This document shows positions 911 to 56,672 of a stretch of 64,000 nt of DNA, piece by piece. Made by a program: the position numbers and the translations under genes. This DNA is from Deltaproteobacteria bacterium (GTDB lineage: Bacteria > Desulfobacterota > Desulfobacteria > Desulfobacterales > Desulfatibacillaceae). A model generated the notes under the pieces. That model ran no database searches. It was given only the letters and a program-made list of their open reading frames with translations, and was not told where the DNA came from. How positions within the stretch are numbered: position 1 is the first letter of the stretch; every line of letters starts with the position of its first letter. The stretch lies in assembly GCA_016235345.1 (NCBI GenBank), contig JACRLG010000015.1:124001-188000 (forward strand), written 5' to 3'.

Positions 911-2749
911 ATGGACGATACGGAAATGGACGAACTGGTGGTAGAGGAACGTAACAACGAAACCGATACCGAGATGGATGAGGTCGTGAAGAAGCCCTCG
1001 CCCAAGGCGATGGTTACGACCAGGATGAACCTGGATGACGAGGCCGAAGACACCGGCCCATCCGAGTTCCAAACACTCTATGAGGAGAGTTTCAAGCGCT
1101 TCGACGAAGGCGAGGTTGTCCACGGGCGCATAGTCCAGGTGGACAAGGAATTCGTCCTGGTGGACATCGGATACAAATCCGAGGGGATGATCCCCATTCG
1201 TGAGTTCTACGAGCCTGACGGCACCATGAGCGCCAAAGTTGGCGACGAGGTGGACGTCATGGTGGAACGCCTGGAATCCGACGAGGAAGGCGTCATCGTC
1301 TCCAAGGAAAAGGCGTCCAAGATAAAGGTCTGGGAAGAAATCAAGAAGGCCTACGAGGAAGACGGCACCGTCACCGGCGTCATCACCCACAGGGTCAAGG
1401 GCGGCTTCTCAGTGGATATCGGGGTCCAGGCATTTCTGCCCGGCTCCCAGGTTGATCTGCGGCCCGTGCGCGACCTGGATGCAATGGTTTCCAAGACCTT
1501 CACTTTCAAGGTTTTAAAATACAACCGCAAGCGCAGCAACATCGTGCTTTCCCGCAGGGTCATACTGGAGAAGGAACGCGAAACCCAGCGCTCCACCACC
1601 CTGTCCGCCATCCACGTCGGCAAGGTCATGCAGGGCCAGGTAAAGAACATCACCGAATACGGCGTGTTCGTGGACCTTGGCGGCATAGACGGCCTTCTGC
1701 ACATCACGGACATCTCCTGGGGCCGTGTGAAGCACCCCAACGAGCTTTTCTCCGTTGGCGACACCATCAACGTGAAGGTTCTCGATCTCGACCTCGAGCG
1801 CGAGCGCGTGTCCCTTGGCATGAAGCAGTTGAAGCCCGATCCGTGGTCGCTGGCAATGGAGCGCTACCCGGTTGGGACCAAGGTTTCCGGCAAGGTGGTG
1901 AGCCTCACCGATTACGGCGCCTTCGTCGAGCTTGAAGAGGGCATCGAGGGCTTGATCCACGTGTCCGAAATGAGCTGGACCAAAAAGGTGCGCCACCCGT
2001 CCAAGGTTGTCTCGGTTGGCGACATGGTGGACGCGGTGGTTCTGGACATCAAGCCCAACAACCGCAGGGTCAGCCTCGGCATGAAGCAGGTCGCGCCCAA
2101 CCCCTGGGATGTCATCGCCGACAAGTACCCGGTGGGCACCACCATCGAGGGCAAGATCAAGAACATCACCGATTTCGGCATGTTCATAGGAATCGATGAG
2201 GGAATCGACGGACTGGTCCACATCTCCGACATCTCCTGGACCAAGCGCGTCAACCACCCCGGCGAAATCTACAAGAAGGGCGACGAGGTCCAGGCCATCG
2301 TTTTGCATATCGACAAGGAAAACGAGCGCTTCTCCCTTGGAATCAAGCAGCTCACCCCCGACCCCTGGGCCACCATTGAAGACCGTTACCGCGTAGGCAC
2401 CCGCATCAAGGGGCTTGTCACCTCGGTGACCGATTTCGGCATCTTCGTGGAGCTTGAGGAAGGCATCGAAGGCCTTGTGCATGTGTCCGAGGTTTCCAAG
2501 GACAAGATCAAGACCCCGGTTGGCCTCTACAACGTGGGCCAGGATGTTGACGCCATAGTGGTCAACATCAATCCCAAGGAACGCCGCATCGGCCTTTCCA
2601 TCAAGCGTCTGGAATCCGATGAAGAGGATTCCTATCTGGCCGATTATCTCACCAACGCCAAGTCTTCCGGCTCCGCCCTGGGCGAGGCCCTGAAACTCTC
2701 CCTCCAGGAAAAGATCAAGGGGCAAAAGGGCGAGGAAGAAGAAGAATAG
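911..2749 (+). CDS. rpsA: 30S ribosomal protein S1
   Basis: Binds mRNA on the 30S subunit and helps initiate translation. Six successive S1 (OB-fold) repeats are visible. The first two are divergent (starting GEVVHGRIVQVDKEF and GTVTGVITHRVKGGF) and the last four are near-identical in pattern (for example GKVMQGQVKNITEYGVFVDL). The tail is acidic (EEEEE). I start at ATG 911 because it has a strong AGGGGG site 11 nt upstream; the frame is open to ATG 854 but that start has no such site. The product of 612 aa is slightly longer than E. coli S1 (557 aa). A structured repeat begins at the base after the TAG stop, and an intrinsic terminator follows at 2943-2984. Confidence 0.97.
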   Translation: MDDTEMDELVVEERNNETDTEMDEVVKKPSPKAMVTTRMNLDDEAEDTGPSEFQTLYEESFKRFDEGEVVHGRIVQVDKEFVLVDIGYKSEGMIPIREFYEPDGTMSAKVGDEVDVMVERLESDEEGVIVSKEKASKIKVWEEIKKAYEEDGTVTGVITHRVKGGFSVDIGVQAFLPGSQVDLRPVRDLDAMVSKTFTFKVLKYNRKRSNIVLSRRVILEKERETQRSTTLSAIHVGKVMQGQVKNITEYGVFVDLGGIDGLLHITDISWGRVKHPNELFSVGDTINVKVLDLDLERERVSLGMKQLKPDPWSLAMERYPVGTKVSGKVVSLTDYGAFVELEEGIEGLIHVSEMSWTKKVRHPSKVVSVGDMVDAVVLDIKPNNRRVSLGMKQVAPNPWDVIADKYPVGTTIEGKIKNITDFGMFIGIDEGIDGLVHISDISWTKRVNHPGEIYKKGDEVQAIVLHIDKENERFSLGIKQLTPDPWATIEDRYRVGTRIKGLVTSVTDFGIFVELEEGIEGLVHVSEVSKDKIKTPVGLYNVGQDVDAIVVNINPKERRIGLSIKRLESDEEDSYLADYLTNAKSSGSALGEALKLSLQEKIKGQKGEEEEE

Positions 2750-2872
2750 CAGCCCGTCTAAAAACGCGAATTGCTGTGTCAGGCGGTAACGCCAATTCCG
2801 CCATGTACGAAAAGTACACTTGCTCATTGGCGTTGCCGCTTTCCTTGCGCTTCATCGTTTTTATCCAGGCTG
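2750..2872 (+). repeat. Stop-codon-tethered structured repeat, copy 1 (after rpsA)
   Basis: Starts at the nucleotide after the rpsA TAG. Outer arms 2750-2766 and 2856-2872 pair except for four central bases. The inner stem GGCGGTAACGCCAAT/ATTGGCGTTGCCGCT pairs almost fully, and the apex is TGTAC-GAAAA-GTACA. It shares with the other copies the left motif GCGAANTGCTGTGTC and the right motif CCTTGC...TTCATCG. Orientation is sense relative to rpsA. There is no T-run after the right arm, so it is not itself a classical terminator; one follows 70 nt later. Confidence 0.85.
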
Positions 2873-2942
2873 CACGTATAGCCTGCTTTAACTGGTTGTT
2901 TGTTCGAGTCTTTTTTCACCGTGTTTTCAAGCAATCCCCCAT

Positions 2943-9236: not shown

Positions 9237-11879
9237 CTATTGGGGCGGCAACAAGACTTCGCGTGGCTTCACCCCGTCACTCGGCCCCACCATGCCGTCC
9301 TTTTCCATGCGCTCTATTATGCGGGCCGCCCGGTTGTAGCCTATGCGGAGCCGACGCTGGATCATGGATATGCTGGCCTGCCGGGTTTCGGCCACTATTG
9401 CCACGGCCTCGTCGAATTTTTCGTCGTATTCCTCGTCATCCTCTTCGCCGTTGCCGTTGCCATTCCCTGCTGCGCTCTCGGTGACGGAAATGTCGTAGCA
9501 GGGCCTGCCCTGTTCCTTGACGAATGTGAGGAGGCGGCCCAATTCCTCGTCCGAGAGAAAGGCACCGTGAAGGCGCTGGATTTTGCCCACTCCGGGGGGC
9601 ATGAAAAGCATGTCGCCCGCGCCCAGAAGGCTTTCCGCGCCGTTTGAATCGAGGATGGTGCGGCTATCTATGCGGCTTGAGACCTGGAAGGCCATGCGGG
9701 TGGGGAAGTTGGCCTTTATGGTGCCGGTTAAAACGTCCACCGAAGGCCGCTGTGTCGCCAGAATAAGATGGATTCCGCAGGCGCGGGCCATCTGGGCCAG
9801 GCGCATCAGCGCAGTTTCCACGTCTTTCGAGGCCACCATCATGAGGTCGGCCAACTCGTCGATAACTATCACCACGTAGGGAAAGGCCTTCAGTTCCGGG
9901 GGCGGAACGCCTGCCACGCCGGAAAAATCCTCGGAGCTGTCCTCGCCGTAGTCGGAATCCTCGCCGCTTTTTTCGGCGTCTTGGGCTGCCTCTGAAAGGC
10001 GTTCCTCCTCCTTTTTCGCCCTCTCCTCCTCCTGTTTTTGCTTAAGATGCGCGATTTTCTGGTTGTAGCCGATTATGTTGCGGGCTCCAAGGGCCGCCAT
10101 TGCCTCGTACCGGGCCTCCATCTCCTTAACGGCCCAGAACAGCGCGTTGGTGGCTTTTTTGGGGTCGGTCACAACCGGGCAGATGAGGTGCGGGATTCCG
10201 TCGTAGTTGGCGAGTTCGATGCGCTTGGGGTCTATCATCACGAACTTCACTTCGTCCGGCGTGCATTTGTACAGAAGGCTTGCGATCATGGAGTTTAAGC
10301 CCACCGATTTTCCCGAACCAGTGGCCCCGGCGATGAGAAGATGGGGCATCCGGGCAAGGTCGCTCACGGTGGGAATGCCCACGATGTCCTTTCCAAGGCA
10401 GACCGTGAGCTTGGTCTTGTTGCGGGAAAATTCGCTCGAGGCCACCATTTCCTTGAAGCCCACAAGCTCGCGCACCTTGTTGGGCACCTCGATTCCCACC
10501 ACGGCCTTTCCCGGAATGGGACCGACAATACGCACGGAAAGGGCTTTCAGGCCCAGTGCGAGATCGTTTTCAAGGCTTGTGATGCGGTTGATTTTGACCC
10601 CGGCTGCCGGCTCGTACTCGTAGGTGGTGATGACCGGTCCCGGCGAGACCTCAACCACGCGGCCCTTTACGCCGAAGTCCTCCAATTTTTGCTCCACGAG
10701 CCTTGCCTGGGCCATGAGGTTTTCCTGGTCCACGGATTCCGGGCGCGGGGGCGGGTCGTCCAGAAGGCTTAAGGGTGGAAGCTGGTAGATACGCTCCTCC
10801 CGGGCAAGGGTTCCGGCCGGCGGCAGAAAGGAGTCGTCCCTCGAGTCTGGCGGGTCTTCCCGAAGAACGGGCCTGGGCCTTATGCGGGGCGGCTTCCTGG
10901 GCGGCTCGTCAGGGGCGACAGGAGAATCATTGACGGATAACGGGGCCTCTGCCTGATCGGCCTCCACCGGCTCAGACCCGACGTTTTCATGTGACACGCC
11001 GTTTATGACGGGCGGAAAGGGAAGCGGCTCCTGCTTCGGATCGTCAAAGGGCTTTTTCCTGCGGGACTTGCCGTTATCGTTGGCTATGGGGGCGAAGCCG
11101 CCAGCAGGACCTGCCTGGGGTTTTTCCCGGCCAAAACCGGTAAAGCGCTTTTTTCCGGCTTTTACACCGGTCAGACCCAGGCGGCTTAAAATCCTCGCCG
11201 AGTCGGTGAGGGAAAGGCCGGTGGCGGCAACGAGGCTTGCCAAAAATCCGCAGAAAAGGACCAGAAATGAGCCCGCCGGGTTGAGAATTTCGGTGAGGGT
11301 CTTGGCCAGAAGCCCCACCAGCATTCCGCCGCCCGGAATACCTACGCCGAAAAGGTCGTATTTCGCCTGCCCGGAAAAGAGAGCGCCGGTGAAAATCGCC
11401 AGAAAAAAGGCCGAAACCCCCAAAAGGAACATGCGTTTGGCTTTTGCGCCCTGGATGAAGCGGATTACGGCGATTATGAGCAAAACGGGAATCCAGTAGG
11501 CCCCGGCCCCAAGGGTGGCGTTGATGAAAAAATCGGCGACAAGAGCCCCTGCCCTGCCGAAAAGATTCCTTATGGCGGCGTCGGGGTTCGCGGTATTGAA
11601 GGACGGGTCCGCGGGGCTGTAGGAAATGAGGCTTCCGGTAAGAAGCACCATCACCATGAATAGCCCGATTGCGAAAATCTCCCGCTTCTGGCGCGAGTTC
11701 CGCTCAGGCCGCACGGCCTTTTTAGGCTTTATCCGCCTGCCATCCTTGGCGGCTTCCTTTTTGGCCCCGGCCTTTGGCTTACCGGACTCCCCCGATTTTT
11801 TCACAGTCTTCACCGCCGCCTCTTTTTCAGGCTTTTTCTTGGGAGCTTTTTTCGCTCCGTTTTTCTTGGTCTCCGCCAT
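9237..11879 (-). CDS. ftsK: DNA translocase FtsK
   Basis: Hexameric ATP-driven DNA pump that links chromosome segregation and dimer resolution to septation. Layout: a Lys/Ala-rich basic N-terminus (about residues 1-65), four or so transmembrane helices (about 70-230), a Pro-rich linker, the motor with Walker A GATGSGKS near residue 515 and the ATQRPSVDVLTGTIKANFPTR segment, and a C-terminal winged-helix gamma domain (SMIQRRLRIGYNRAARIIE). A charged insertion (KQKQEEERAKKEEERLSEA onward) interrupts the motor, as is common in FtsK. I start at ATG 11879 with AAGG upstream; the frame is open to 11915. Confidence 0.97.
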   Translation of the reverse strand: MAETKKNGAKKAPKKKPEKEAAVKTVKKSGESGKPKAGAKKEAAKDGRRIKPKKAVRPERNSRQKREIFAIGLFMVMVLLTGSLISYSPADPSFNTANPDAAIRNLFGRAGALVADFFINATLGAGAYWIPVLLIIAVIRFIQGAKAKRMFLLGVSAFFLAIFTGALFSGQAKYDLFGVGIPGGGMLVGLLAKTLTEILNPAGSFLVLFCGFLASLVAATGLSLTDSARILSRLGLTGVKAGKKRFTGFGREKPQAGPAGGFAPIANDNGKSRRKKPFDDPKQEPLPFPPVINGVSHENVGSEPVEADQAEAPLSVNDSPVAPDEPPRKPPRIRPRPVLREDPPDSRDDSFLPPAGTLAREERIYQLPPLSLLDDPPPRPESVDQENLMAQARLVEQKLEDFGVKGRVVEVSPGPVITTYEYEPAAGVKINRITSLENDLALGLKALSVRIVGPIPGKAVVGIEVPNKVRELVGFKEMVASSEFSRNKTKLTVCLGKDIVGIPTVSDLARMPHLLIAGATGSGKSVGLNSMIASLLYKCTPDEVKFVMIDPKRIELANYDGIPHLICPVVTDPKKATNALFWAVKEMEARYEAMAALGARNIIGYNQKIAHLKQKQEEERAKKEEERLSEAAQDAEKSGEDSDYGEDSSEDFSGVAGVPPPELKAFPYVVIVIDELADLMMVASKDVETALMRLAQMARACGIHLILATQRPSVDVLTGTIKANFPTRMAFQVSSRIDSRTILDSNGAESLLGAGDMLFMPPGVGKIQRLHGAFLSDEELGRLLTFVKEQGRPCYDISVTESAAGNGNGNGEEDDEEYDEKFDEAVAIVAETRQASISMIQRRLRIGYNRAARIIERMEKDGMVGPSDGVKPREVLLPPQ

Positions 11880-11998: not shown

Positions 11999-12523
11999 TT
12001 ACCAATATGGTTCATTAGGAAAATACACCTTAAGTATAGCATTGAGACGGTTTTCAAATTCTTTAAGTTCCTTTGGTTTTTTTAACGACGGTGGAGTATC
12101 TGCTGAATCATCAAACATGTAATAACTTACTATTGACCTATAAGGGCCCTCAGAGTATATTAATGACAATACACACATATCGCCTATGAATGTTTTCGGA
12201 TCCGAAGTATCGTTCTCATTTGCTTCGGCATATTTCTCTACAATGCTTTTTACCTCTGTTATCAAAGAATGAGCAACAAATATAGGAATTTTTACGGTAC
12301 TGCTTCTTTCGAAATCTATTCGTTGCATGTCTATAGATTTATATGAACAGACTCCATACTTATCAATTTTAATCGAAACGTTTAATAAATCAGATGGAGC
12401 GAATCCACCGTAAAAATATTCAAATTTTCCTTTAAAATTATTTGCAAATTTTTCTACTATATATATTGTGGAAGGAGTAAAACTGATGATTAAAAATATT
12501 GATATGACAAAAAATTTTTTCAC
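11999..12523 (-). CDS. AT-rich hypothetical secreted or lipid-anchored protein
   Basis: I do not recognise this protein. From GTG 12523 (AAGGA 7 nt upstream) it is 174 aa with a signal-peptide-like N-terminus (MKKFFVISIFLIISFTPS), then a soluble, mixed alpha/beta-looking region with no repeated motif. Base composition is strikingly AT-rich compared with ftsK and the acyl-CoA synthetase on either side. An upstream ATG at 12574 gives a longer, less convincing N-terminus. The sharp composition change and orphan position suggest horizontal acquisition. Confidence 0.6.
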   Translation of the reverse strand: MKKFFVISIFLIISFTPSTIYIVEKFANNFKGKFEYFYGGFAPSDLLNVSIKIDKYGVCSYKSIDMQRIDFERSSTVKIPIFVAHSLITEVKSIVEKYAEANENDTSDPKTFIGDMCVLSLIYSEGPYRSIVSYYMFDDSADTPPSLKKPKELKEFENRLNAILKVYFPNEPYW

Positions 12524-12881
12524 TGTTATTTCCTTATACAATATTAACAATACAGTTGAAGAGCCAAACGTCAATTACACATCAATTTTTCCTGTCATTT
12601 TTGTTAATGTATAAAGCTGCTGATAGCTTTGGGTGCATAAGCTAATGCTGCTTAAGTTCAAAGAAGCGAACTTAGGCATCTAACGCCCCGCCCGTCGCCC
12701 CATCATCCATCTTATGCATCATTAAGCGACCAAGCAAAAAATATAAGAGCTTCCCATCGTGGCCTCGTCCAGCGGGCCATATATCCAAAACACAAGGAAG
12801 CTGAGCAGGGCGGGCATATATCCAAAAGAACCCAGCCACGATCTTTTTCTCTTCCCGGTTTTTCCTTTATCGCAAGCCTCG
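12524..12881. other. Gene-free stretch with a hairpin and a short direct repeat
   Basis: No convincing gene. It holds an 11-bp stem with one G-T pair (12649-12659 with 12668-12678, TGCTTAAGTTC/GAACTTAGGCA) and a direct repeat of about 18 bases containing CATATATCCAAAA (12772-12790 and 12810-12827). The first 80 bp are AT-rich and probably carry the promoter of the preceding orphan gene. The frames seen across 12712-12978 show no codon bias or start signal. Confidence 0.5.
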
Positions 12882-13008
12882 GCCAGAGGGCGTGAGAGAG
12901 ATGAGATGCAAGGCGTGCGAGCGAGTGGCGCGGGAGCGTACGCTTTTGTACGTGACCAAGCCGCGAGGCGAAGCACACGCCGCAGATCGCTCTCTCACGC
13001 CCTCTGGC
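12882..13008 (-). repeat. Stop-codon-tethered structured repeat, copy 2 (after the acyl-CoA synthetase)
   Basis: Sense relative to the minus-strand acyl-CoA synthetase, starting 6 nt after its TGA. The outer arms (12990-13008 with 12882-12900) are a perfect 19-bp inverted repeat. The apex is CGTAC-AAAAGC-GTACG, with the shared flanks CTTGGTCA and GCTCCC. The arm sequence CCAGAGGGCGTGAG also occurs as the last codons and stop of the upstream gene (13014-13027). Confidence 0.85.
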
Positions 13009-13014
13009 GCGCCC

Positions 13015-15144
13015 TCACGCCCTCTGGAGCATTATGCGGCTGTCGGCGATAGTGCATCCCTGTCCCTCAGCATACACGATAACCGGGTTCAAGTCCATCT
13101 CCGATATTCGCGGATGATCGCTCACAAGCTGGCTCATGCGGAGGATGCAGTCCTTTATGGCCTCGATGTCGGAGGGCGGCGCGCCCCGAACTCCCTGGAG
13201 TATGCGGAAGGCCTTGATGGAGCGGATCATCTCCTCCGCCGAAAGCTCCCACATGGGCGCGAGCCGGAAGGTGACGTCCTTTAGGGCTTCCACGAAGGTG
13301 CCGCCAAGGCCGAACATGCAAAGGGGGCCGAACTTGGGGTCCTGGTTCGCGCCCAGAATGACCTCGATTCCGCCCTTGGCCATTTTTTCCATGAGAATGC
13401 CGTCGATTATGGCCTTTGGCTCGGCCCGGCGCACGTTGGCGATGATCTTTTTATATGCCTCGCGGGCCTGCTCGGCTGTTTCGATCTTTAAAATCACGCC
13501 GCCCACGTCGAACTTGTGAACGATCTCGCGGGAGGAGATTTTCATGACAACGGGCGGCCCCACGAACTTGAGCGCGGCCTCTATTTCATCCTCGTTCGTT
13601 ATGAGGCGGCTTTTGAGCAGGGGAAAGCCGTAGAGGGCGAGAATCTCGTTGGCCTCCTGCTCGGGCAGGTGCACGCGGTCGGCGTCTTTGAGTTTCGCGT
13701 CGATTATGGCGGTAACCGCGGCCTTATCGACAGCATAGGTCACGTGGCGGCGCTTCTGGCTTTTTCCCGGGGCCAGGCGGTCGGAAAACTTGGTCATGGA
13801 GGCGAAAGCGCGCACGGCGGCTTCGGGGAAGCTGTAGTTGGGGATGTTGTGTTCCACGAGGTATTTCACGCCAGCCGAAACGTCCACGATGCCCATAAAG
13901 GAGCACAGAACCGGCTTGTGCACGGTTTCCAGCACCTTGGGCACGATCTGGGCGGTTTCCAGGACGTCGGTCATTTTCTGGGGGGTCAGCACCACGATTG
14001 CGCCGTCCACGCCTGGGTCGTCCAGGACCGATTTAAGCGCGCACTCGTAGCGCTGGTAGTCGGCGTCTCCGATAACGTCAACCGGATTATGGATGTTGGC
14101 GGTGGGAGGAAGGTGCTCCTTTAAGTCCGCCTCTGTTTCCGGGGTGAATTTCGCAAGCGTGAGACCGTGGCGGATGGCGGCATCCGTGGTCATGATTCCG
14201 GGTCCGCCCGCGTTGGTGACTATGGCCAGGCGCTTTCCTTCGGGAAGAGGCATACGCGAGAAGGCCTCGGCGTAGTGGAACATCTCGTTCACGTCCTCCA
14301 CGCGCTGGATGCCGCTTTGGAGGAAAATGGCGTCGTAGGAGGCGTCCGAACCCGCAAGGCTTCCGGTGTGCGAGCTTGCGGCCTTGGCCCCCTCCTCGCT
14401 CCTGCCGCTTTTTATGGCCAGAATGGGCTTGTTGTGCTTCCAGGTGACGTCGCTTGCCACGTCGGCGAATTTGCGTCCATCCGAGATGTCTTCGAGATAC
14501 ATGAGGATGACGGAGGTCTGGGGATCGTCCGCAAGATACTGGAGAAGCTCCACCTCGTTCACGTCGGCCTTGTTGCCGAAGCTGATGAACTTGGAAAATC
14601 CGATGTCCCGGCCCTTGGCCAAATCGAGGACTGCGGTGCAGAGCGCGCCCGATTGGGAGATGAAGCCGATGTTGCCGGGCTTGGGCATGGTCTGGGCGAA
14701 GCTGGCGTTCATGGAAAAAGCAGGGTCGGTGTTTATGACGCCAAGGCAGTTGGGGCCGACAAGCCTTATGCCACGCTCCTTTGCCGCCGCCTTGACCGCT
14801 TCTTCAAGTTCAACGCCTGCGCCGCCCACCTCTTTGAAACCGGCGGTTATGACCACCACGCCCTTTGCGCCCTTGTCCGCCGCCTCGTGAATGACCTTGG
14901 GAACCAGCGGGGCCGGAACGATGATGACCGCCATGTCAACTTCGCCCGGAATATCCGTTATGGTGGGATAGGCCCGGTTGCAGACAACGGATTTTGCGCG
15001 GGGATTGACCGGATAAAGGACTCCCGTGTAGCCGCCTTCGATGAGATTGGTGACCACTGCGCGGCCCACGCTGCCCCGGCGGTCGGTTGCACCCACCACC
15101 GCGATGGAGCGGGGTTCCATGATGGCCTTTATGTTCTCAGCCAT
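13015..15144 (-). CDS. ADP-forming acyl-CoA (acetate-CoA) synthetase, alpha-beta fusion
   Basis: Interconverts acyl-CoA plus ADP and phosphate with free acid plus ATP and CoA, conserving energy as ATP. Domains in order: CoA-binding Rossmann domain (IMEPRSIAVVGATDRRGSVG), succinyl-CoA-ligase-like domains with the phosphohistidine region SHTGSLAGSDASYDAIF, then a C-terminal ATP-grasp domain (PPVVMKISSREIVHKFDVGG...VILGANQDPKFGP). The length (709 aa) fits the fused form. ATG 15144 has GGAGG 5 nt upstream. It is the last gene of the run pgk-like, DUF2284, DUF2284, synthetase, and a structured repeat follows its stop. The acyl substrate cannot be read from sequence. Confidence 0.93.
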   Translation of the reverse strand: MAENIKAIMEPRSIAVVGATDRRGSVGRAVVTNLIEGGYTGVLYPVNPRAKSVVCNRAYPTITDIPGEVDMAVIIVPAPLVPKVIHEAADKGAKGVVVITAGFKEVGGAGVELEEAVKAAAKERGIRLVGPNCLGVINTDPAFSMNASFAQTMPKPGNIGFISQSGALCTAVLDLAKGRDIGFSKFISFGNKADVNEVELLQYLADDPQTSVILMYLEDISDGRKFADVASDVTWKHNKPILAIKSGRSEEGAKAASSHTGSLAGSDASYDAIFLQSGIQRVEDVNEMFHYAEAFSRMPLPEGKRLAIVTNAGGPGIMTTDAAIRHGLTLAKFTPETEADLKEHLPPTANIHNPVDVIGDADYQRYECALKSVLDDPGVDGAIVVLTPQKMTDVLETAQIVPKVLETVHKPVLCSFMGIVDVSAGVKYLVEHNIPNYSFPEAAVRAFASMTKFSDRLAPGKSQKRRHVTYAVDKAAVTAIIDAKLKDADRVHLPEQEANEILALYGFPLLKSRLITNEDEIEAALKFVGPPVVMKISSREIVHKFDVGGVILKIETAEQAREAYKKIIANVRRAEPKAIIDGILMEKMAKGGIEVILGANQDPKFGPLCMFGLGGTFVEALKDVTFRLAPMWELSAEEMIRSIKAFRILQGVRGAPPSDIEAIKDCILRMSQLVSDHPRISEMDLNPVIVYAEGQGCTIADSRIMLQRA

Positions 15145-15204
15145 TATTCCTCCTTCAAAAACTCGCGTCAAACGCTATAAATTCGTTAAGCAGAAACTGA
15201 TAAA

Positions 15205-15327
15205 AAGCCTGGATAAAAACGATGAAGCGCGAAGGTTCGCGAACGGCGCGGGGAGGAATAATACTTTTCGTATATGACGACCCGCAAAGTTTCGCGTGAC
15301 ACAGCGATTCGAGTTTTTAGACGGACG
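15205..15327 (-). repeat. Stop-codon-tethered structured repeat, copy 3 (after the first DUF2284 gene)
   Basis: The right arm ends at 15327, directly against the TAA of the DUF2284 gene (15328-15330). The outer arms GTCTAAAAAC and CGTTTTTATC pair less well than in other copies. Inner stems GCGAA/TTCGC and GCGGG/CCCGC pair, and the apex is ATAC-GAAAA-GTAT, a paired-base variant of the GTAC apex elsewhere. It separates two genes of what looks like one operon. Confidence 0.75.
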
Positions 15328-16308
15328 TTATAATTTTTTCGGACGCCCGGCAAACATGACCTTGTAGGACTGTGCCACGTCCAGCCAGGAGCCGGAAAGC
15401 TCGCGCATGTTCTTTGTAAGTCGCATCCAGAGCCTTCTCTGGCGAAGAAGCGCTGGAGCCTGTGTAAGTTTCACGTTGGCCTGGGAATAGGCGGCGCGGT
15501 TGCGGGAAAGGTCCCGGATTACCCGCCGGATGTTTTCGGCAGGCTCGGCTCCGGGCCTGGTCACCGGGTCGGGATCGGACAAGGGAGCCTTCGCGGGCCT
15601 TTCCGCTCTCTGGCCCTTGGGCACGGGGCCTATGAGGGCAAGGCCCATGAGGCTTCCCGTGCCCACGCTCTCCGGGCCGCAGGTGCCGCCTATGGGGAAG
15701 ACGTCCCAGCCAGCGATGGCCCCCATTTTGAATGCGTTCATTCCGCACGATTCCATGGAAGGGGCCGAAAGCCCCGGATGGCGGCACTTGCCGGTTGCCA
15801 TGTGGCGGCAGTTGGGCTGAAAGTGGCACAGGGCGTCCCGGCAGTTTCCGGCCCCGTAGCAGGCCTCGGAAAGATAGCCCATGTCGCGGGCGGTTTTCTG
15901 CAGAAGGCGCGCTATGGTGAAGGCGAGCATGTAATGGCCGCCGAGATTCATAAGGTTTCCGGCGTCGTCCATCACGCCGCCCGCTATATCGGCTCCAAGT
16001 CCCTTGGCCGCGATGATGGAGGGCGGCACCTTCACCCGAAAAAAAATCGCCCAGGTGTGGCGGCCCACGATCTCCCGCACCTCGTCTATGCTCCATCCGT
16101 TGGGCGGGCAGTGGGAGCAGCCGCCCGACATGTAGCACTTGGGGACCATGCACTTGAACCGCACCCTTGGGTCGATCAGGACGTCCTTCGCTTCAAGAAG
16201 GGCCACGTTGTCGGCCCCCCACTTTTTTGCGAGGAGTTGAAGCTCGTCCAGATCGGTGGGCATCACCCACTCCTTATCCAGGATGGGATTTTTACGAAGC
16301 TTGATCAT
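15328..16308 (-). CDS. DUF2284 family predicted metal-binding protein (Cys-rich)
   Basis: Function is not established for this family, which is common in anaerobes. Two Cys clusters are visible: C53, C58, C64 and C67 (FKCMVPKCYMSGGCSHCPPN), and a second in ACYGAGNCRDALCHFQPNCR and TGKCRHPGLSAPSMESCG. The pattern suggests an Fe-S or other metal site. The length is 326 aa, with a basic, Arg-rich tail of about 90 residues that the second DUF2284 protein lacks. It sits between that paralogue and the acyl-CoA synthetase, with a structured repeat on each side. A link to acyl-CoA metabolism is only suggested by context. Confidence 0.8.
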   Translation of the reverse strand: MIKLRKNPILDKEWVMPTDLDELQLLAKKWGADNVALLEAKDVLIDPRVRFKCMVPKCYMSGGCSHCPPNGWSIDEVREIVGRHTWAIFFRVKVPPSIIAAKGLGADIAGGVMDDAGNLMNLGGHYMLAFTIARLLQKTARDMGYLSEACYGAGNCRDALCHFQPNCRHMATGKCRHPGLSAPSMESCGMNAFKMGAIAGWDVFPIGGTCGPESVGTGSLMGLALIGPVPKGQRAERPAKAPLSDPDPVTRPGAEPAENIRRVIRDLSRNRAAYSQANVKLTQAPALLRQRRLWMRLTKNMRELSGSWLDVAQSYKVMFAGRPKKL

Positions 16309-16391
16309 GGTAACGCACCTTGGTTATTTCGCCGGAAAATCTTTGAATAATAAGATATCTGGCCGGTTAGCACTCCCAAAAAAGGCACGGT

Positions 16392-16516
16392 AACGCCTGG
16401 ATAAAAACGATGAAATGCAAGGAGCGCGAGCCAAAAAGGAGGGCGCGTACGCTTTTGTACGTAACCGACTTTTTGGCGATGCGCGACACAGCAGTTCGCG
16501 TTTTTAGACAGGCGTT
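16392..16516 (-). repeat. Stop-codon-tethered structured repeat, copy 4 (after the second DUF2284 gene)
   Basis: Abuts the TGA at 16517-16519. Outer arms 16499-16516 and 16392-16409 pair (AACGCCTG and TAAAAACG) around a 2-nt mismatch. Middle stems are GCGC/GCGC and GCCAAAAAG/CTTTTTGGC; the apex is CGTAC-AAAAGC-GTACG. Sense relative to the upstream gene. Confidence 0.87.
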
Positions 16517-17176
16517 TCAATCAACGAATATTATGCCCGCCAGAAGCGGCCCCGTCTCCTCGTTCCAGAATTCCCAGCCGAGGGCCTTGGCCATTGACTC
16601 CACGTCAAGGCCCATTGCTATGGCCGAAGGGCGGGCCTTGTAGGGATGCCTGCACGTCCTGCCCTTAATTACCGCCATGCAGCGTTTTTCCTTGTGGCAG
16701 TAAATTGCCCGGCAGTTGCCCGCGCCGAAGCCGAGAGTCAGCTGATAGCCCTTGTAAAAGGCCGACGACTCCACCTGGGTTGTGATGAAATTGAGTTTTT
16801 CGTAGAGCTTCCTGTAGCCCGGCTCCGTTATGAGGCCCTGGCCGTGATCGGGCATGTCCGCCGGGGTCTTCAGCCTGAAGAACACGGCGCTGGAAAAGGC
16901 CCTTACTGCGTCGGCAACGGAATCGTTTGGGTAGCCGATGGGCCAGTGGGCGGAAGTGTAGGTTTTGACTGCGTCCGCCCCGCCGGATGAATCGGGATCG
17001 AGCACTATGTCGTCCGGCCCCAGGATCGCCGCGTCGTCGGCTCCCATGGAAAGGGCGAGGTTCCGCATCTCGGCCAGATCAAGGGCAAGGCGTTTCTCGT
17101 CGTTCACCGCCGATATCTGCCTTACGCCCTGGCGGCCCTTGGAGGATTGGACAAGGTAGAGTTCAGCACGCGCCAT
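16517..17176 (-). CDS. DUF2284-related protein lacking the N-terminal Cys cluster
   Basis: Paralogue of the next gene downstream. The shared part is GFGAGNCRAIYCHKEKRCM followed by CRHPYKARPSAIAMGLDV, the DUF2284 C-terminal signature. Where the paralogue has four cysteines before CPPN, this protein has YTSAHWPIGYPND with no Cys at all, so any metal site formed by that cluster is lost. It is 219 aa and its start overlaps the 3' end of the pgk-like gene by 14 nt, implying co-transcription. Function is unknown; a partner or regulatory role for the Cys-rich paralogue is speculation. Confidence 0.75.
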   Translation of the reverse strand: MARAELYLVQSSKGRQGVRQISAVNDEKRLALDLAEMRNLALSMGADDAAILGPDDIVLDPDSSGGADAVKTYTSAHWPIGYPNDSVADAVRAFSSAVFFRLKTPADMPDHGQGLITEPGYRKLYEKLNFITTQVESSAFYKGYQLTLGFGAGNCRAIYCHKEKRCMAVIKGRTCRHPYKARPSAIAMGLDVESMAKALGWEFWNEETGPLLAGIIFVD

Positions 17177-29052: not shown

Positions 29053-29257
29053 AGGGCTGTACTCCACCCTTGGAACCGTTTCGCCGCCCGCGACTTTTTT
29101 CTTTCTTCCGAAAAACACGGTCTTTGTCTCCGTAGAGCCCCGCGCTTTTAACGCCGCTTTAAATCCCGTCAACCCGCAAAAAGCTGTTTCATCTAAATCT
29201 GATTCAGCACCGTAAGGGCGTGTACAAGCGAAAGCTCCAAAATATTCCGGCAAACAG

Positions 29258-29384
29258 CCCAAGTGGTCTGAAAACGATGAAATGCAAGGAAGGCGAGCCT
29301 AAAAGGAGGGAGCGTACGCTGTTGTACGTGACCGACTTTTAGGGGATGCCTGACACCGCAGTTCGCGTTTTCAGACCACTTGGG
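29258..29384 (-). repeat. Stop-codon-tethered structured repeat, copy 5 (after moxR)
   Basis: Outer arms 29366-29384 and 29258-29276 form a perfect 19-bp stem starting at the base next to the moxR TGA (29385-29387). Inner stems are AGGC/GCCT and CCTAAAAG/CTTTTAGG; the apex is CGTAC-AACAGC-GTACG. It contains the conserved GCGAACTGC and CCTTGCATTTCATCG motifs, sense relative to moxR. It splits moxR from the rest of the Bat operon. Confidence 0.9.
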
Positions 29385-30362
29385 TCAGGGGACTTCGATG
29401 CGTTCTAAGAGTTTAGCTACAATCTGTTCGGCTGTGACCCCCTCGGCCAGGGCCTCGTAGCTCGGAATTATCCTGTGCCGCAAAACGTCCGGGGCCAGGG
29501 ATTTAACGTCCTGGGGGGTCACGTAGGCCCTACCGTTCAGGAAGGCGTGGGATCGGGCGGCGTCCGCAAGGTAGAGGGAGGCCCTTACCGATGCTCCGTA
29601 GAGTATGAACCTGTCCAGCGGCAGGCCGAAGCTTCCGGGAGCGCGGGTGGCGTGGACGAGGTTTATGATGTAGTCCCGGATTTTCTCCTCCATGTGGATG
29701 GAGGCGGCCACCTGTCGGGCCCTTAAGATGGCCGCCACGTCCACCACCGGTTTTATGGAGATGTCGCCGCCTTCCTTGCGGCGCATGATCTCTTTTTCCT
29801 CGGAGGGCGTTGGGTAGTCCACCTTTATTTTCAGCATGAAGCGGTCCACCTGGGCCTCCGGGAGCGGATAGGTGCCTTCCTGCTCTATGGGGTTCTGGGT
29901 GGCAAGGACCATGAAGGGCGTATCGAGAGAAAAGGTCGTCCCGCCTATGCTTATCTGGCGTTCGGCCATGGCTTCCAGAAGGGCGCTCTGGACCTTGGCC
30001 GGGGCGCGGTTGATTTCATCGGCGAGGATTATGTTGTGGAAAAGCGGGCCTTTCCGAATTTCAAACTGCCCCGTGTCCGGGCGGAAAATCTGGGTGCCCA
30101 GGATATCGGCGGGCAACAGGTCGGGCGTGAACTGTATGCGCACGAAATCGGCGTGAATGGCCGAGGCCAGGGCCTTGACCGCCGTGGTCTTGGCAAGGCC
30201 CGGAAGGCCTTCCACAAGAAGGTGCCCGTCGCACAGAAGGCCGATGAGAAGCCTTTCTATTAGCGCCTTCTGGCCCACGATGACCTTTTCCACCTGAGCG
30301 GTCACATCCTTCAACACCAGGCTCTCCCGCTCCACATTTTTTGCGATTTCCTGAATTTCCAT
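29385..30362 (-). CDS. moxR: MoxR family AAA+ ATPase
   Basis: Chaperone-like AAA+ ATPase. Walker A is GLPGLAKTT (residues 52-60), Walker B is ILADEINRAPAKVQSALLEAM, sensor 1 is VLATQNPIEQEGTYPLPEAQ, and the C-terminal lid carries the sensor 2 region. The length of 325 aa is typical. ATG 30362 has GGAGG 6 nt upstream. First gene of the Bat cluster. MoxR proteins are thought to remodel or load cofactors into partners via vWA proteins; here the partners would be BatA and BatB. Confidence 0.95.
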   Translation of the reverse strand: MEIQEIAKNVERESLVLKDVTAQVEKVIVGQKALIERLLIGLLCDGHLLVEGLPGLAKTTAVKALASAIHADFVRIQFTPDLLPADILGTQIFRPDTGQFEIRKGPLFHNIILADEINRAPAKVQSALLEAMAERQISIGGTTFSLDTPFMVLATQNPIEQEGTYPLPEAQVDRFMLKIKVDYPTPSEEKEIMRRKEGGDISIKPVVDVAAILRARQVAASIHMEEKIRDYIINLVHATRAPGSFGLPLDRFILYGASVRASLYLADAARSHAFLNGRAYVTPQDVKSLAPDVLRHRIIPSYEALAEGVTAEQIVAKLLERIEVP

Positions 30363-30519: not shown

Positions 30520-30600
30520 ATCACATCAACTGTCTTTTCATTCCAGCCTTTATAGCCCAGCCCGTAATTCCGTTTTGCCTTTAATCAGCCACGGACTTGA

Positions 30601-30723
30601 GGGCTGGTCGGAAACGATGAGCTGCAAGGAGGATGAGCCGGGTGCGGGCGCAAGCGTATCAAGGATACGTGCGCACCGCGCCCGGCGATATCCGACACAG
30701 CAGATCGCGTTTCAGGACAGCCC
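30601..30723 (-). repeat. Stop-codon-tethered structured repeat, copy 6 (after fhs)
   Basis: The outer arm runs into the first base of the fhs TAG (30723-30725). Arms 30708-30723 and 30601-30616 pair (GGGCTG and GAAACG) around a 4-nt mismatch. Middle stem GGAT/ATCC and inner stem GCCGGG/CCCGGC both differ from the other copies yet stay paired. The apex is CGTATC-CTT-GATACG. Sense relative to fhs. Confidence 0.87.
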
Positions 30724-32486
30724 TAGAACAAACCGGATACTTTTCCGGTTTTAACATCCACATCCACGCGGCGGAAGGCCGGGTTGGAGGCGGTTCCGGG
30801 CATGAGGCTGATTGTTCCGGCGCAGGGGCACAGGAACTTCGCGCCGGAGTAAATGAGCACGTCGCGTATGGGAAGCGTCCAGCCCTTGGGCACGCCCTTC
30901 AGTGTGGGGTCGTGGGTGAGGGAAAGGTGCGTCTTCACCATCATGGTGGCGAAATCGGCGTACTTGGGATCATTTTCCAGCATCTTGGCCTTGGCTTCAG
31001 CTTCCGGGGCCCAGGACACGCCGTCGGCTCCGTAGCATTCCTTGGCGATGAGGGCGACGCGGTCGCGGAGCTTCATCTCGATGGGGTACAGGAACTGGAA
31101 GTTGTTGCCTTCGTTGGAGGCGTCGATGACGGCGTCCGCCAGTTCGAGGGCTCCGTCGCCGCCGTTGGCCCAATGGGTGGACTTGGCGCAGCGGGCGCCT
31201 GCGGCCTCGGCTATTCTCTTCACCAGGGCGATTTCCGCGTCGGTGTCGGTGTGGAAGCAGTTGATGCAGACAACCGGGTTGATGCCTGCCCGGCGGATGG
31301 TCTTGATGTGGTGGACCATGTTCTCGCAGCCCTTTTCAACCAGGGCCAAATCTTCCTTGGTGTACTCTTCGGGAAGGGCCTTGCCCGGAACGACCTTGGG
31401 CCCGCCGCCGTGCATTTTAAGGGCGCGGATGGTGGTGGTGAGAACTGACACGTGGGGCTTCAAGCCGGAGAAGCGGCACTTGACGTTCCAGAACTTCTCG
31501 AAACCGATGTCTGCGGCGAACCCGGACTCGGTGACGTGATAGTCGAAGAGCTTCAGGCCGATGCGATCAGCGATGATGGAGCTCTGGCCCACGGCGATGT
31601 TGGCGAAGGGGCCCGCATGCACGAAGCAGGGCTGATATTCGGCCGTCGACATGATGGTGGGGTTGATGGTGTTGCGCATCCAGGCGGTCATTGCGCCGCC
31701 CACTTCCAGGTCGCCGGTTGTGACGGGCTTGCCGGACTTGTCGAAGGCAACCGTGATCTTGTCGAGACGGTCCCTAAGGTCGGCAAGGTCGCGGATGATG
31801 GAAAGGATGGCCATGCACTCGGAACCCACCGCGATGCCGAACTTGCTCTGCATGGTGTAGCCGTCGGTGCGTCCGCCAAGGCCGATGACGATGTTGCGAA
31901 GGCTCTGGGCGCAGTAGTCAATGATCCAGCCCATTTCAACGCGGGTGGGGTCTATGTCCAGGCGGCGCATCTTGGTGAGGCGCTCAAGCTGCTCGTCGTT
32001 GTAGTTGCGCTCGTGCTGCATGCGGCTGGTCATGGCCACCATGGCCAAGTTGTGGGCGTTCATGATGTCGTTGATGTCGCCGGTGAGGCCAAGGGAGAAC
32101 TCGGTCATGGGGATGAGAAGGGCGTTTCCGCCGCCTGCCGCAGTTCCCTTCACGTTCATGGTGGGGCCGCCCGAGGGCTGGCGGAGCGCGCCGCCGACGT
32201 TCAAGCCGCGCTTGCCCAGGCCTTCCATGAGGCCCACGGAGGTGGTGCTCTTGCCTTCGCCCAGGGGGGTGGGGGTGATGGCGGTGACTTCGATGTACTT
32301 GCCGTCTTCCTTGTCCTTCAGGCGCTCTATCACCTTCAGGAAGTCCACCTTGGCGAGCTTGCCCATGGGAAGGATTTCGTCCTTCTGAAGGCCGAGCTTG
32401 TTCTGCCAGTCTTCGGGGGTGGGCATGTTCACTTCGGCAAGTTCGGAAATCTGCCAGTCAGCCAGTTTGGTCGCATCGTACGCCAT
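30723..32486 (-). CDS. fhs: Formate-tetrahydrofolate ligase
   Basis: ATP-dependent formation of 10-formyl-THF from formate; first methyl-branch step of the Wood-Ljungdahl pathway and a one-carbon entry point. The P-loop-like [20 protein letters not shown] lies near residue 75, followed by [20 protein letters not shown] and [11 protein letters not shown], all family hallmarks. The length (587 aa) is at the upper end of normal. The start has GGAGAGGAAG upstream. Monocistronic: a structured repeat then a terminator follow. In a sulfate reducer it could work either oxidatively or reductively; the window has no other pathway genes. Confidence 0.98.
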
Positions 32487-55248: not shown

Positions 55249-55296
55249 CGCAGTTATCGATGGGCGGTTGCTCCGCTGCTAACCCTTCATCCGCAT

Positions 55297-55421
55297 CCGG
55301 GGCTCGCAGAAGCGATGAAATGCAAGGAAGGGGAGTTGAAAAGGAGGGAGCGTAAGCTTTTGTACGTGACCGACTTTTCAACTATGCCTGACACAGCAGT
55401 TCGCGCTTCTGCGAGCCCCGG
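55297..55421 (-). repeat. Stop-codon-tethered structured repeat, copy 7 (after the zinc-ribbon gene)
   Basis: Outer arms 55404-55421 and 55297-55314 form a perfect 18-bp stem (CCGGGGCTCGCAGAAGCG) starting at the base next to the TAG (55422-55424). The inner stem is AGTTGAAAAG/CTTTTCAACT; the apex is CGTA...TACG with one mismatch. Sense relative to the minus-strand gene. Confidence 0.9.
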
Positions 55422-56672
55422 CTAAACGTCTTTGCCGTATATCAGCGCCTGCTTGCTGACCGCTATCCCCAACTCCTCCTGAACCAACTCTCCGCCCCTG
55501 GGCGTACAGGGAACGTAAACCAGCATGCCCTTTTTGGGGGTGATGGAAATCTCCGGGAGCTTCAAGAAAATGGTCCGCTTGGGGGTGCCGAAGGTCGCAA
55601 GCACCGATTTCAGGCTTTGCATGGCCTCAACCAGCGGGAAGTTGACCGGAAGCAGGCTGCCCGAATCGGGCACGCGGGCCTCCATGGCCCCCAGAAACGG
55701 CGTTATTGTAACCTGCTTGGCCACCCGCAGAAAAAGATGGGGATGAATTTTAAACGCGGGAATCCAGAAGTAGAAATCGTCGGTTTCCCACTCCTTCTTT
55801 ATGGCCTTGGGGAGATTCGCCACCCTGATCAGGTCGGCGTAGGTATCGAGCTTGACGCCCTTGATGGAGGAGCCAATGCACCAGAAGGGCAGATAAACGA
55901 GGTCATTTCCCTTTCCTGGGATGGTCCGCACCAGAATCGGCCTGAATTCGTCCCCCCTGGGATACCAGCCCATGTTGCAGACTTTGCAGAGAAAGACTTC
56001 CGCAGTCTTGTCGCCCTTCAAGTCGAATCCGCACTGGGGGCACATGGAGGACAGAAAACGCGGCATCCAGTGCAGTTCGTCCGTTGCAGCCCCGGCCAGG
56101 GCATCGATGGCCGCCTGTTCCGGCGCGGGCCCCACGGGCTTTTTGTTGATGAGGTCCACCACGTTTCCGCCGTCAAGGGCGTAGGGTGCGAAAATCACTC
56201 CGGCGGATTCGCCCACCCAGGCGTTTTCGTAGGTTTCAGGGCCTGATGCCGTTTCCTTCAGGCCGCTTGCAGCCTTGTCCATTTTCCCCAATACCTGGAA
56301 CAGGTCCAGCTCCGGAGGCACGAACCGTCCGGCGACGCCCCTTTCGGCAAACCGGAGCTGCGGGGACTTGGTATTGTTGGGCAGGTCTTTTAAAGCAAAG
56401 GCGCCTTTTAAGCCGACGTGCGCCGAATCGAGGCTTACGGGATCGATTTTGAAGGATGACACGGCCTTGTAGACCGTTCCCTTCAGCCGCCAGTAGGGAA
56501 GATATAGGAAATCGCCTGAGCCTTCAGGGGCTTCCATGTAATAGCGGAAAGGCCCCCTTGACGTTATGTGGACGCGCACCCTGCAGGCCGGACAAATCAG
56601 CATCCGATCCGTCTCATCCAGGATCACGGGGGCCTGGCACTGGGGGCACGGGTGTTCTATCTTGAAATTCAA
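55422..56672 (-). CDS. Zinc-ribbon protein with an internal duplication
   Basis: I do not recognise a named family. Two zinc ribbons are visible, CPQCQAPV...CPACRV near the N-terminus and CPQCGFDL...CKVCNM in the middle. Each is followed by a similar beta-rich block (FLYLPYWRLKG and LVYLPFWCIGSSIKG), so the protein looks like two copies of one module. 416 aa from TTG 56672, which has AAGGAG 6 nt upstream; the frame is open to 56789. A role in protein or metal binding is likely; nothing points to catalysis. A structured repeat begins at its stop. Confidence 0.75.
   Translation of the reverse strand: MNFKIEHPCPQCQAPVILDETDRMLICPACRVRVHITSRGPFRYYMEAPEGSGDFLYLPYWRLKGTVYKAVSSFKIDPVSLDSAHVGLKGAFALKDLPNNTKSPQLRFAERGVAGRFVPPELDLFQVLGKMDKAASGLKETASGPETYENAWVGESAGVIFAPYALDGGNVVDLINKKPVGPAPEQAAIDALAGAATDELHWMPRFLSSMCPQCGFDLKGDKTAEVFLCKVCNMGWYPRGDEFRPILVRTIPGKGNDLVYLPFWCIGSSIKGVKLDTYADLIRVANLPKAIKKEWETDDFYFWIPAFKIHPHLFLRVAKQVTITPFLGAMEARVPDSGSLLPVNFPLVEAMQSLKSVLATFGTPKRTIFLKLPEISITPKKGMLVYVPCTPRGGELVQEELGIAVSKQALIYGKDV

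Follow-up and report, generated by a model that had tools for sequence, protein, structure and literature searches.

The doubled end of a synthetase gene

In a 64,000-nt stretch of a Desulfatibacillaceae genome (here, the window), the last codons and stop of an acyl-CoA synthetase gene occur twice, at the end of the gene and again in an arm of the palindromic element beside it. Did the element take its arms from the gene, or the gene its end from the element? The 14-mer CTCACGCCCTCTGG occurs exactly at 12994-13007 (+), 13014-13027 (+), and 12883-12896 (-), as the first-pass annotation stated, and the synthetase TGA (13015-13017) falls within the outer of the two direct copies. With up to two mismatches, four matches are present in the 64-kb window, against 0.65 expected. 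The direct repeat is real, but its length had been understated, as it consists of two 20-bp units that abut (gap 0) and are identical at 18 of 20 positions. The features of the locus, and the other family copies in the window, are as follows.

2745..2876, minus strand: family copy (covariance model R1)
12882..12899, no strand: left (far) arm of the palindrome, GCCAGAGGGCGTGAGAGA, pairing 18/18 with 12991-13008
12900..12990, plus strand (model orientation): conserved element core, GATGAGATGC...GCAGATCGC, from BLAST copies and R1
12988..13007, minus strand: inner 20-bp unit CCAGAGGGCGTGAGAGAGCG, 18/20 identical to the outer unit
12991..13008, no strand: gene-side (right) arm; its TCA at 12995-12997, read as TGA on the minus strand, is the probable former gene stop
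13008..13027, minus strand: outer 20-bp unit CCAGAGGGCGTGAGGGCGCG, carrying the stop now in use and ending in TGA-GGGC-GCG, as arm/core junctions of the family normally read
13015..15144, minus strand: acyl-CoA synthetase (ADP-forming type; Pfam), 709 aa, ending ...RIMLQRA*, TGA at 13015-13017
15201..15333, plus strand: family copy upstream of the synthetase (R1)
16389..16520, plus strand: family copy (R1)
29256..29387, plus strand: family copy with perfect copy-specific arms CCCAAGTGGTCTGAAAAC (R1)
30596..30729, plus strand: family copy (R1)
55294..55425, plus strand: family copy with perfect copy-specific arms CCGGGGCTCGCAGAAGC (R1)

On the strand of the gene, the locus reads ATG CTC CAG AGG GCG TGA GGGCGCG CCAGAGGGCGTGAGAGA GCGATCTGC.... 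The locus folds strongly over 171 nt, as RNA at -94 kcal/mol (z -5.8) and as DNA with a z score of -2.9. Between the element and a large gene at 9237-11879 lies an AT-rich small ORF (11999-12574, minus strand, 191 aa), whose composition is unlike its GC-rich surroundings.

A family of palindromic repeats

The element at 12882-13008 belongs to a family of palindromes about 130 bp long. A BLAST search of the genome recovers about 40 members; model R1, built from 25 copies and comprising 133 positions with a variable foot, finds 115 in 829 kb (the window plus contigs C28 and C2), from which we extrapolate to about 550 in the whole genome. A sister species (G001, an 83%-complete genome) has at least 112 scored copies, and two genomes from a different genus in the same taxonomic family have 108 and 56, with tens of copies or none elsewhere in the order. 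No Rfam family reaches the gathering score in the window, and none relevant occurs at E<=1 over the element. The repeat was not found in the open-licence literature on Desulfatibacillum or on palindromes that supply stop codons. The hairpin family is large, seems to be undescribed, and merits its own description.

Copies share a conserved core of about 90 nt, flanked by outer arms of about 17 nt that vary among copies and pair within each. At arm positions, both partners have usually changed, and a change in one partner alone is rare; identity between own arm partners is 0.81 and 0.79, versus 0.56 and 0.59 for shuffled partners (0/5000 permutations). The inner arm ends also differ among copies (AAAC, AAGC, GGGC, GAGA, and GGGA). 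Over arm pairs 1 to 15, minus two conserved mismatch positions, there are 52 G-T cells and 18 A-C cells, or 34 versus 15 (p 0.009) after dropping one further, possibly inherited position. From this excess, the model strand may have a role as a single strand, although the test is weakened by the shared ancestry of the copies. In the common class of copies, the conserved pairing at arm pairs 8 and 9 is not Watson-Crick (a step of tandem G-A, or of A-A beside T-G), which suggests that a single-stranded hairpin is recognised.

Some copies depart from this anatomy. A nested small hairpin, CCCGCCCAAGAAATCGCAGAGTTCTTGGGC..., is present in 12 of 211 sampled copies (C28:126676, C2:243055, L222:801, L225:801, and others), always at one same spot in the terminal loop. 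Minimal 66-nt versions (L106:6165-6230 and L107:3999-4064) have the arms and the inner stem, with the central core missing. Elsewhere, several copies lie together in clusters.

Copies at gene ends

Of the 211 copies, 153 have a gene stop no more than 60 nt from their right end in model orientation; in this sample, those beyond contigs C28 and C2 were picked among the best-scoring. Stop offsets, in which individual values may be wrong given a home-made codon log-odds gene caller, have two sharp peaks: -16 (56/211), with the stop immediately outside the arm and 16 nt from the core, and -4 (17/211), with the stop within the arm and 4 nt from the core. The arm is about 17 nt long irrespective of where the stop falls. 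For genes of the -4 class, the final codons and stop coincide with the gene-side arm, mostly in the frame CAG-NNN-NNN-TGA/TAA; the arm supplies the end of the gene. Glutamine is third from last (Q-x-x) in 13 of these 17 proteins, compared to 32 of 649 genes overall, and the synthetase ends in Q-R-A.

The synthetase stop is at -24, and the inner TGA (12995-12997) is offset by -4 from the core, as in the 17 copies. The present stop is thus 20 nt farther out, the length of the tandem unit. As -24 less this unit is -4, the stop of the gene most likely lay within the arm before a 20-bp duplication took place. This agrees with one of two readings offered earlier, that the gene ended inside the element and its end was duplicated.

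Orthologues with and without the element

The closest named matches of the synthetase are from the metagenome-assembled genome WY2.bin34 (87%) and Desulfatibacillum alkenivorans (72%), which makes the host a relative of Desulfatibacillum. The sister-species synthetase is 87% identical and its 3' end is without an element; a family copy does lie upstream of the gene there, as here. In the comparison with an element-free orthologue that had been proposed earlier, the sister has KKA* in place of QRA* (IMLKKA* versus IMLQRA*, both proteins stopping at the same position). Q at the third-last place occurs in none of the synthetase relatives with a readable end. However, the sister differs at 4 of 9 bases over the last three codons and four-fold sites are only 55% identical, so that ordinary drift might account for QRA and the gene end might be native.

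Other genes were compared using one concatenated query of 28 gene ends, covering a subset of the copies. At three genes with an in-arm stop (L016, L035, and C28:253584), the sister tails differ and no element directly follows the gene; tails in the element-free sister and in the in-arm gene are GRNA* versus GRQGG*, QML* versus LQDQEG*, and SALG* versus FQGD*. At a further gene, the sister has EKLLA* with an AAAAAC-arm copy at the same place and the in-arm gene has DKITQGA*. The other pairs examined mostly have a copy in both species, usually with unlike arms. Because the element-free sister orthologues have different tails, these comparisons indicate that codons probably passed from element to gene, and they count against the earlier suggestion that arms are acquired from the target. 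In the sister orthologue of the L015 gene (L127, G001), EAHGA* is followed by AAGCGCGATC and only TGAAAGCGCGATC is retained, apparently the decayed remnant of a lost copy. Copies would thus also get lost, and some gene tails may predate the present arms.

Origin of the doubled end

We consider it probable that the synthetase gene formerly ended in the element arm, at 12995-12997, and that a 20-bp duplication followed. Given the observed repeat, tandem unit, offsets, family, and element-free sister locus, the most likely order and direction of events is as follows. With a family copy at its 3' end, the gene would have read into the arm and stopped at the TGA of the arm (12995-12997). A local 20-bp duplication, comprising the gene-side arm and the first three core bases, would then have placed a second CAG-AGG-GCG-TGA upstream. 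Of the two, the outer would now terminate the gene and the inner would persist as the arm. The unduplicated state at the synthetase is seen in no closer genome. The junction of the outer unit, TGA-GGGC-GCG, matches the arm/core junctions of C2:335639 and L019, whereas the inner unit ends TGA-GAGA-GCG and is matched 18/18 by the far arm. The copy at C2:335639 is mixed, with GGGC on the gene side and GAGA on the far side, which would be exactly the state expected before the duplication.

The doubling at the synthetase is a rare, small local accident. A check for arm sequence repeated in the adjacent gene end found a direct repeat outside the arm in only 3 of the 211 sampled copies, so that acquisition of arms from targets, which the first-pass annotation had suggested, is not general. 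Chance was rejected as the origin of the arm repeat, as the expected number of outer-arm matches in a copy's own flank, over all 211 copies, is 0.00 for 13/13 and 0.08 for 12/13. The two other cases are L025 and C28:247172. In L025, with the gene on the left, a 13-bp duplication accompanies a stop at -17, which is -4 less 13; the inner arm equals the opposite arm (17/17), and the outer copy differs from its inner arm. In C28:247172, an arm repeat of about 25 bp is on the side away from the gene.

It is close to an even chance that the duplication arose via template switching between the palindrome arms. We propose this because the inner unit equals the far arm at 18/18 positions and the outer unit retains the ordinary TGA-GGGC-GCG junction; in two of the three duplicated copies, an inner unit that inverts the opposite arm exactly is accompanied by an outer unit that differs. 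Plain slippage followed by substitutions is a possible alternative. Tentatively, and with somewhat less conviction, we suggest that across a family of hundreds of gene-end hairpins, template switching during replication continually re-copies the arms from side to side, which would mirror the coding bases and stop of the neighbouring gene in the far arm. An equally tentative part of this suggestion is that presence at the gene end is kept between species and arm sequence is not.

The opposite direction, in which a native gene end CCAGAGGGCGTGA was copied into the arms of a new element by insertion or later template switching, is unlikely. The native synthetase end would then read CTCCAGAGGGCGTGAGGGCGCG / CAGAGGGCGTGAGGGCGCG. 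Arms that are copy-specific and complementary within copies (the 0/5000 permutations above) count in its favour, as do a few copies with the last codon and stop of the neighbour mirrored in the far arm (GGATAG, GCGTAG, and GCCTGAGGGGCC). At a thiolase-like gene (C2:247411), a sister-specific base of codon CGG is also present in the far arm of the sister's copy. However, a copy of the arm beyond the arm exists in just those three copies, the arm keeps its length of about 17 nt wherever the stop falls, element-free sister genes are without the Q-x-x tail, and the exact -4/-24 relation would have to be put down to coincidence. A weaker form, in which one arm is copied onto the other after insertion, is compatible with these observations.

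Still less likely are two successive insertions, with the outer unit a leftover arm of an older copy beside which a second copy landed. The outer unit is indeed a full arm with the first three core bases, and clusters of copies are known elsewhere. However, the units abut with no other remnant between them, and the arm variant CCAGAGGGCGTGA is absent from the other listed GC-type arms; a second donor would need the same private variant. Duplication of a target site by transposition of the element, suggested by a direct repeat beside a mobile-looking repeat, is very improbable and contradicted by the layout, as both direct copies are on one side, one of them being the arm itself, and the other, differing flank, TCGCAAGCCTCGG, has no direct copy. 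On the favoured reading, an in-arm stop followed by local duplication, the locus is an explicit example in which a repeat wrote the final codons and the stop of a conserved metabolic gene, and hundreds of natural copies make arm copying, stop-codon supply, and repeat turnover traceable between species.

Comparison with known systems

The nearest parallel is ERIC / IRU (RU-1) of enterobacteria, palindromic repeats of about 127 bp with many intergenic copies (Delihas 2007, PMC2759123). In known cases an RU-1/ERIC copy is fused to the 3' end of a gene, which has lost its own stop and takes its C-terminus from the repeat (PMC2759123). The family described here likewise takes over the C-terminus and stop (17/211 at -4, 13/17 with Q-x-x, sister genes without the tail), but it differs in its fixed stop distance and copy-specific arms; in the Rfam comparison, which gave no match, no relation between the two was found. 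As for REP / BIME with RAYT, there are hundreds of palindromic copies per genome right after stops; REP within 15 nt of a stop in E. coli has a reported effect on translation (PMC12306157). However, the copies are about 130 bp rather than 20-40 bp, with a variable foot rather than a conserved tetranucleotide (GTAG or CGTC). Mobilisation by a RAYT seems less likely: a Y1_Tnp search gave one weak match (E 2.8e-8) in this genome (G000) and none in the 83%-complete G001, despite its complement of at least 112 copies. Integron attC sites were also rejected, as the conserved RYYYAAC / GTTRRRY ends are not present and inner arm ends vary.

Template-switch mutations at quasipalindromes, which produce inverted copies that complete hairpin arms or give rise to new ones (Monttinen and Loytynoja 2022, PMC8794818), are a mutation mechanism, unlike the element families above. 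Judging from the pattern of bases, they would account for inner units that are identical to the opposite arm.

Putative function of the common class

A simple scan finds no terminator at the synthetase copy, where a T-run is absent (CTCTCTCACG), and we rejected identification of this copy as an intrinsic terminator, as it does not combine a GC-rich stem with a T-run. The common class does resemble intrinsic terminators in having a stable stem followed by GTTTTT right after the gene. As the core stem is followed by GTTTTT in these copies, a putative role in termination or 3'-end protection is plausible.
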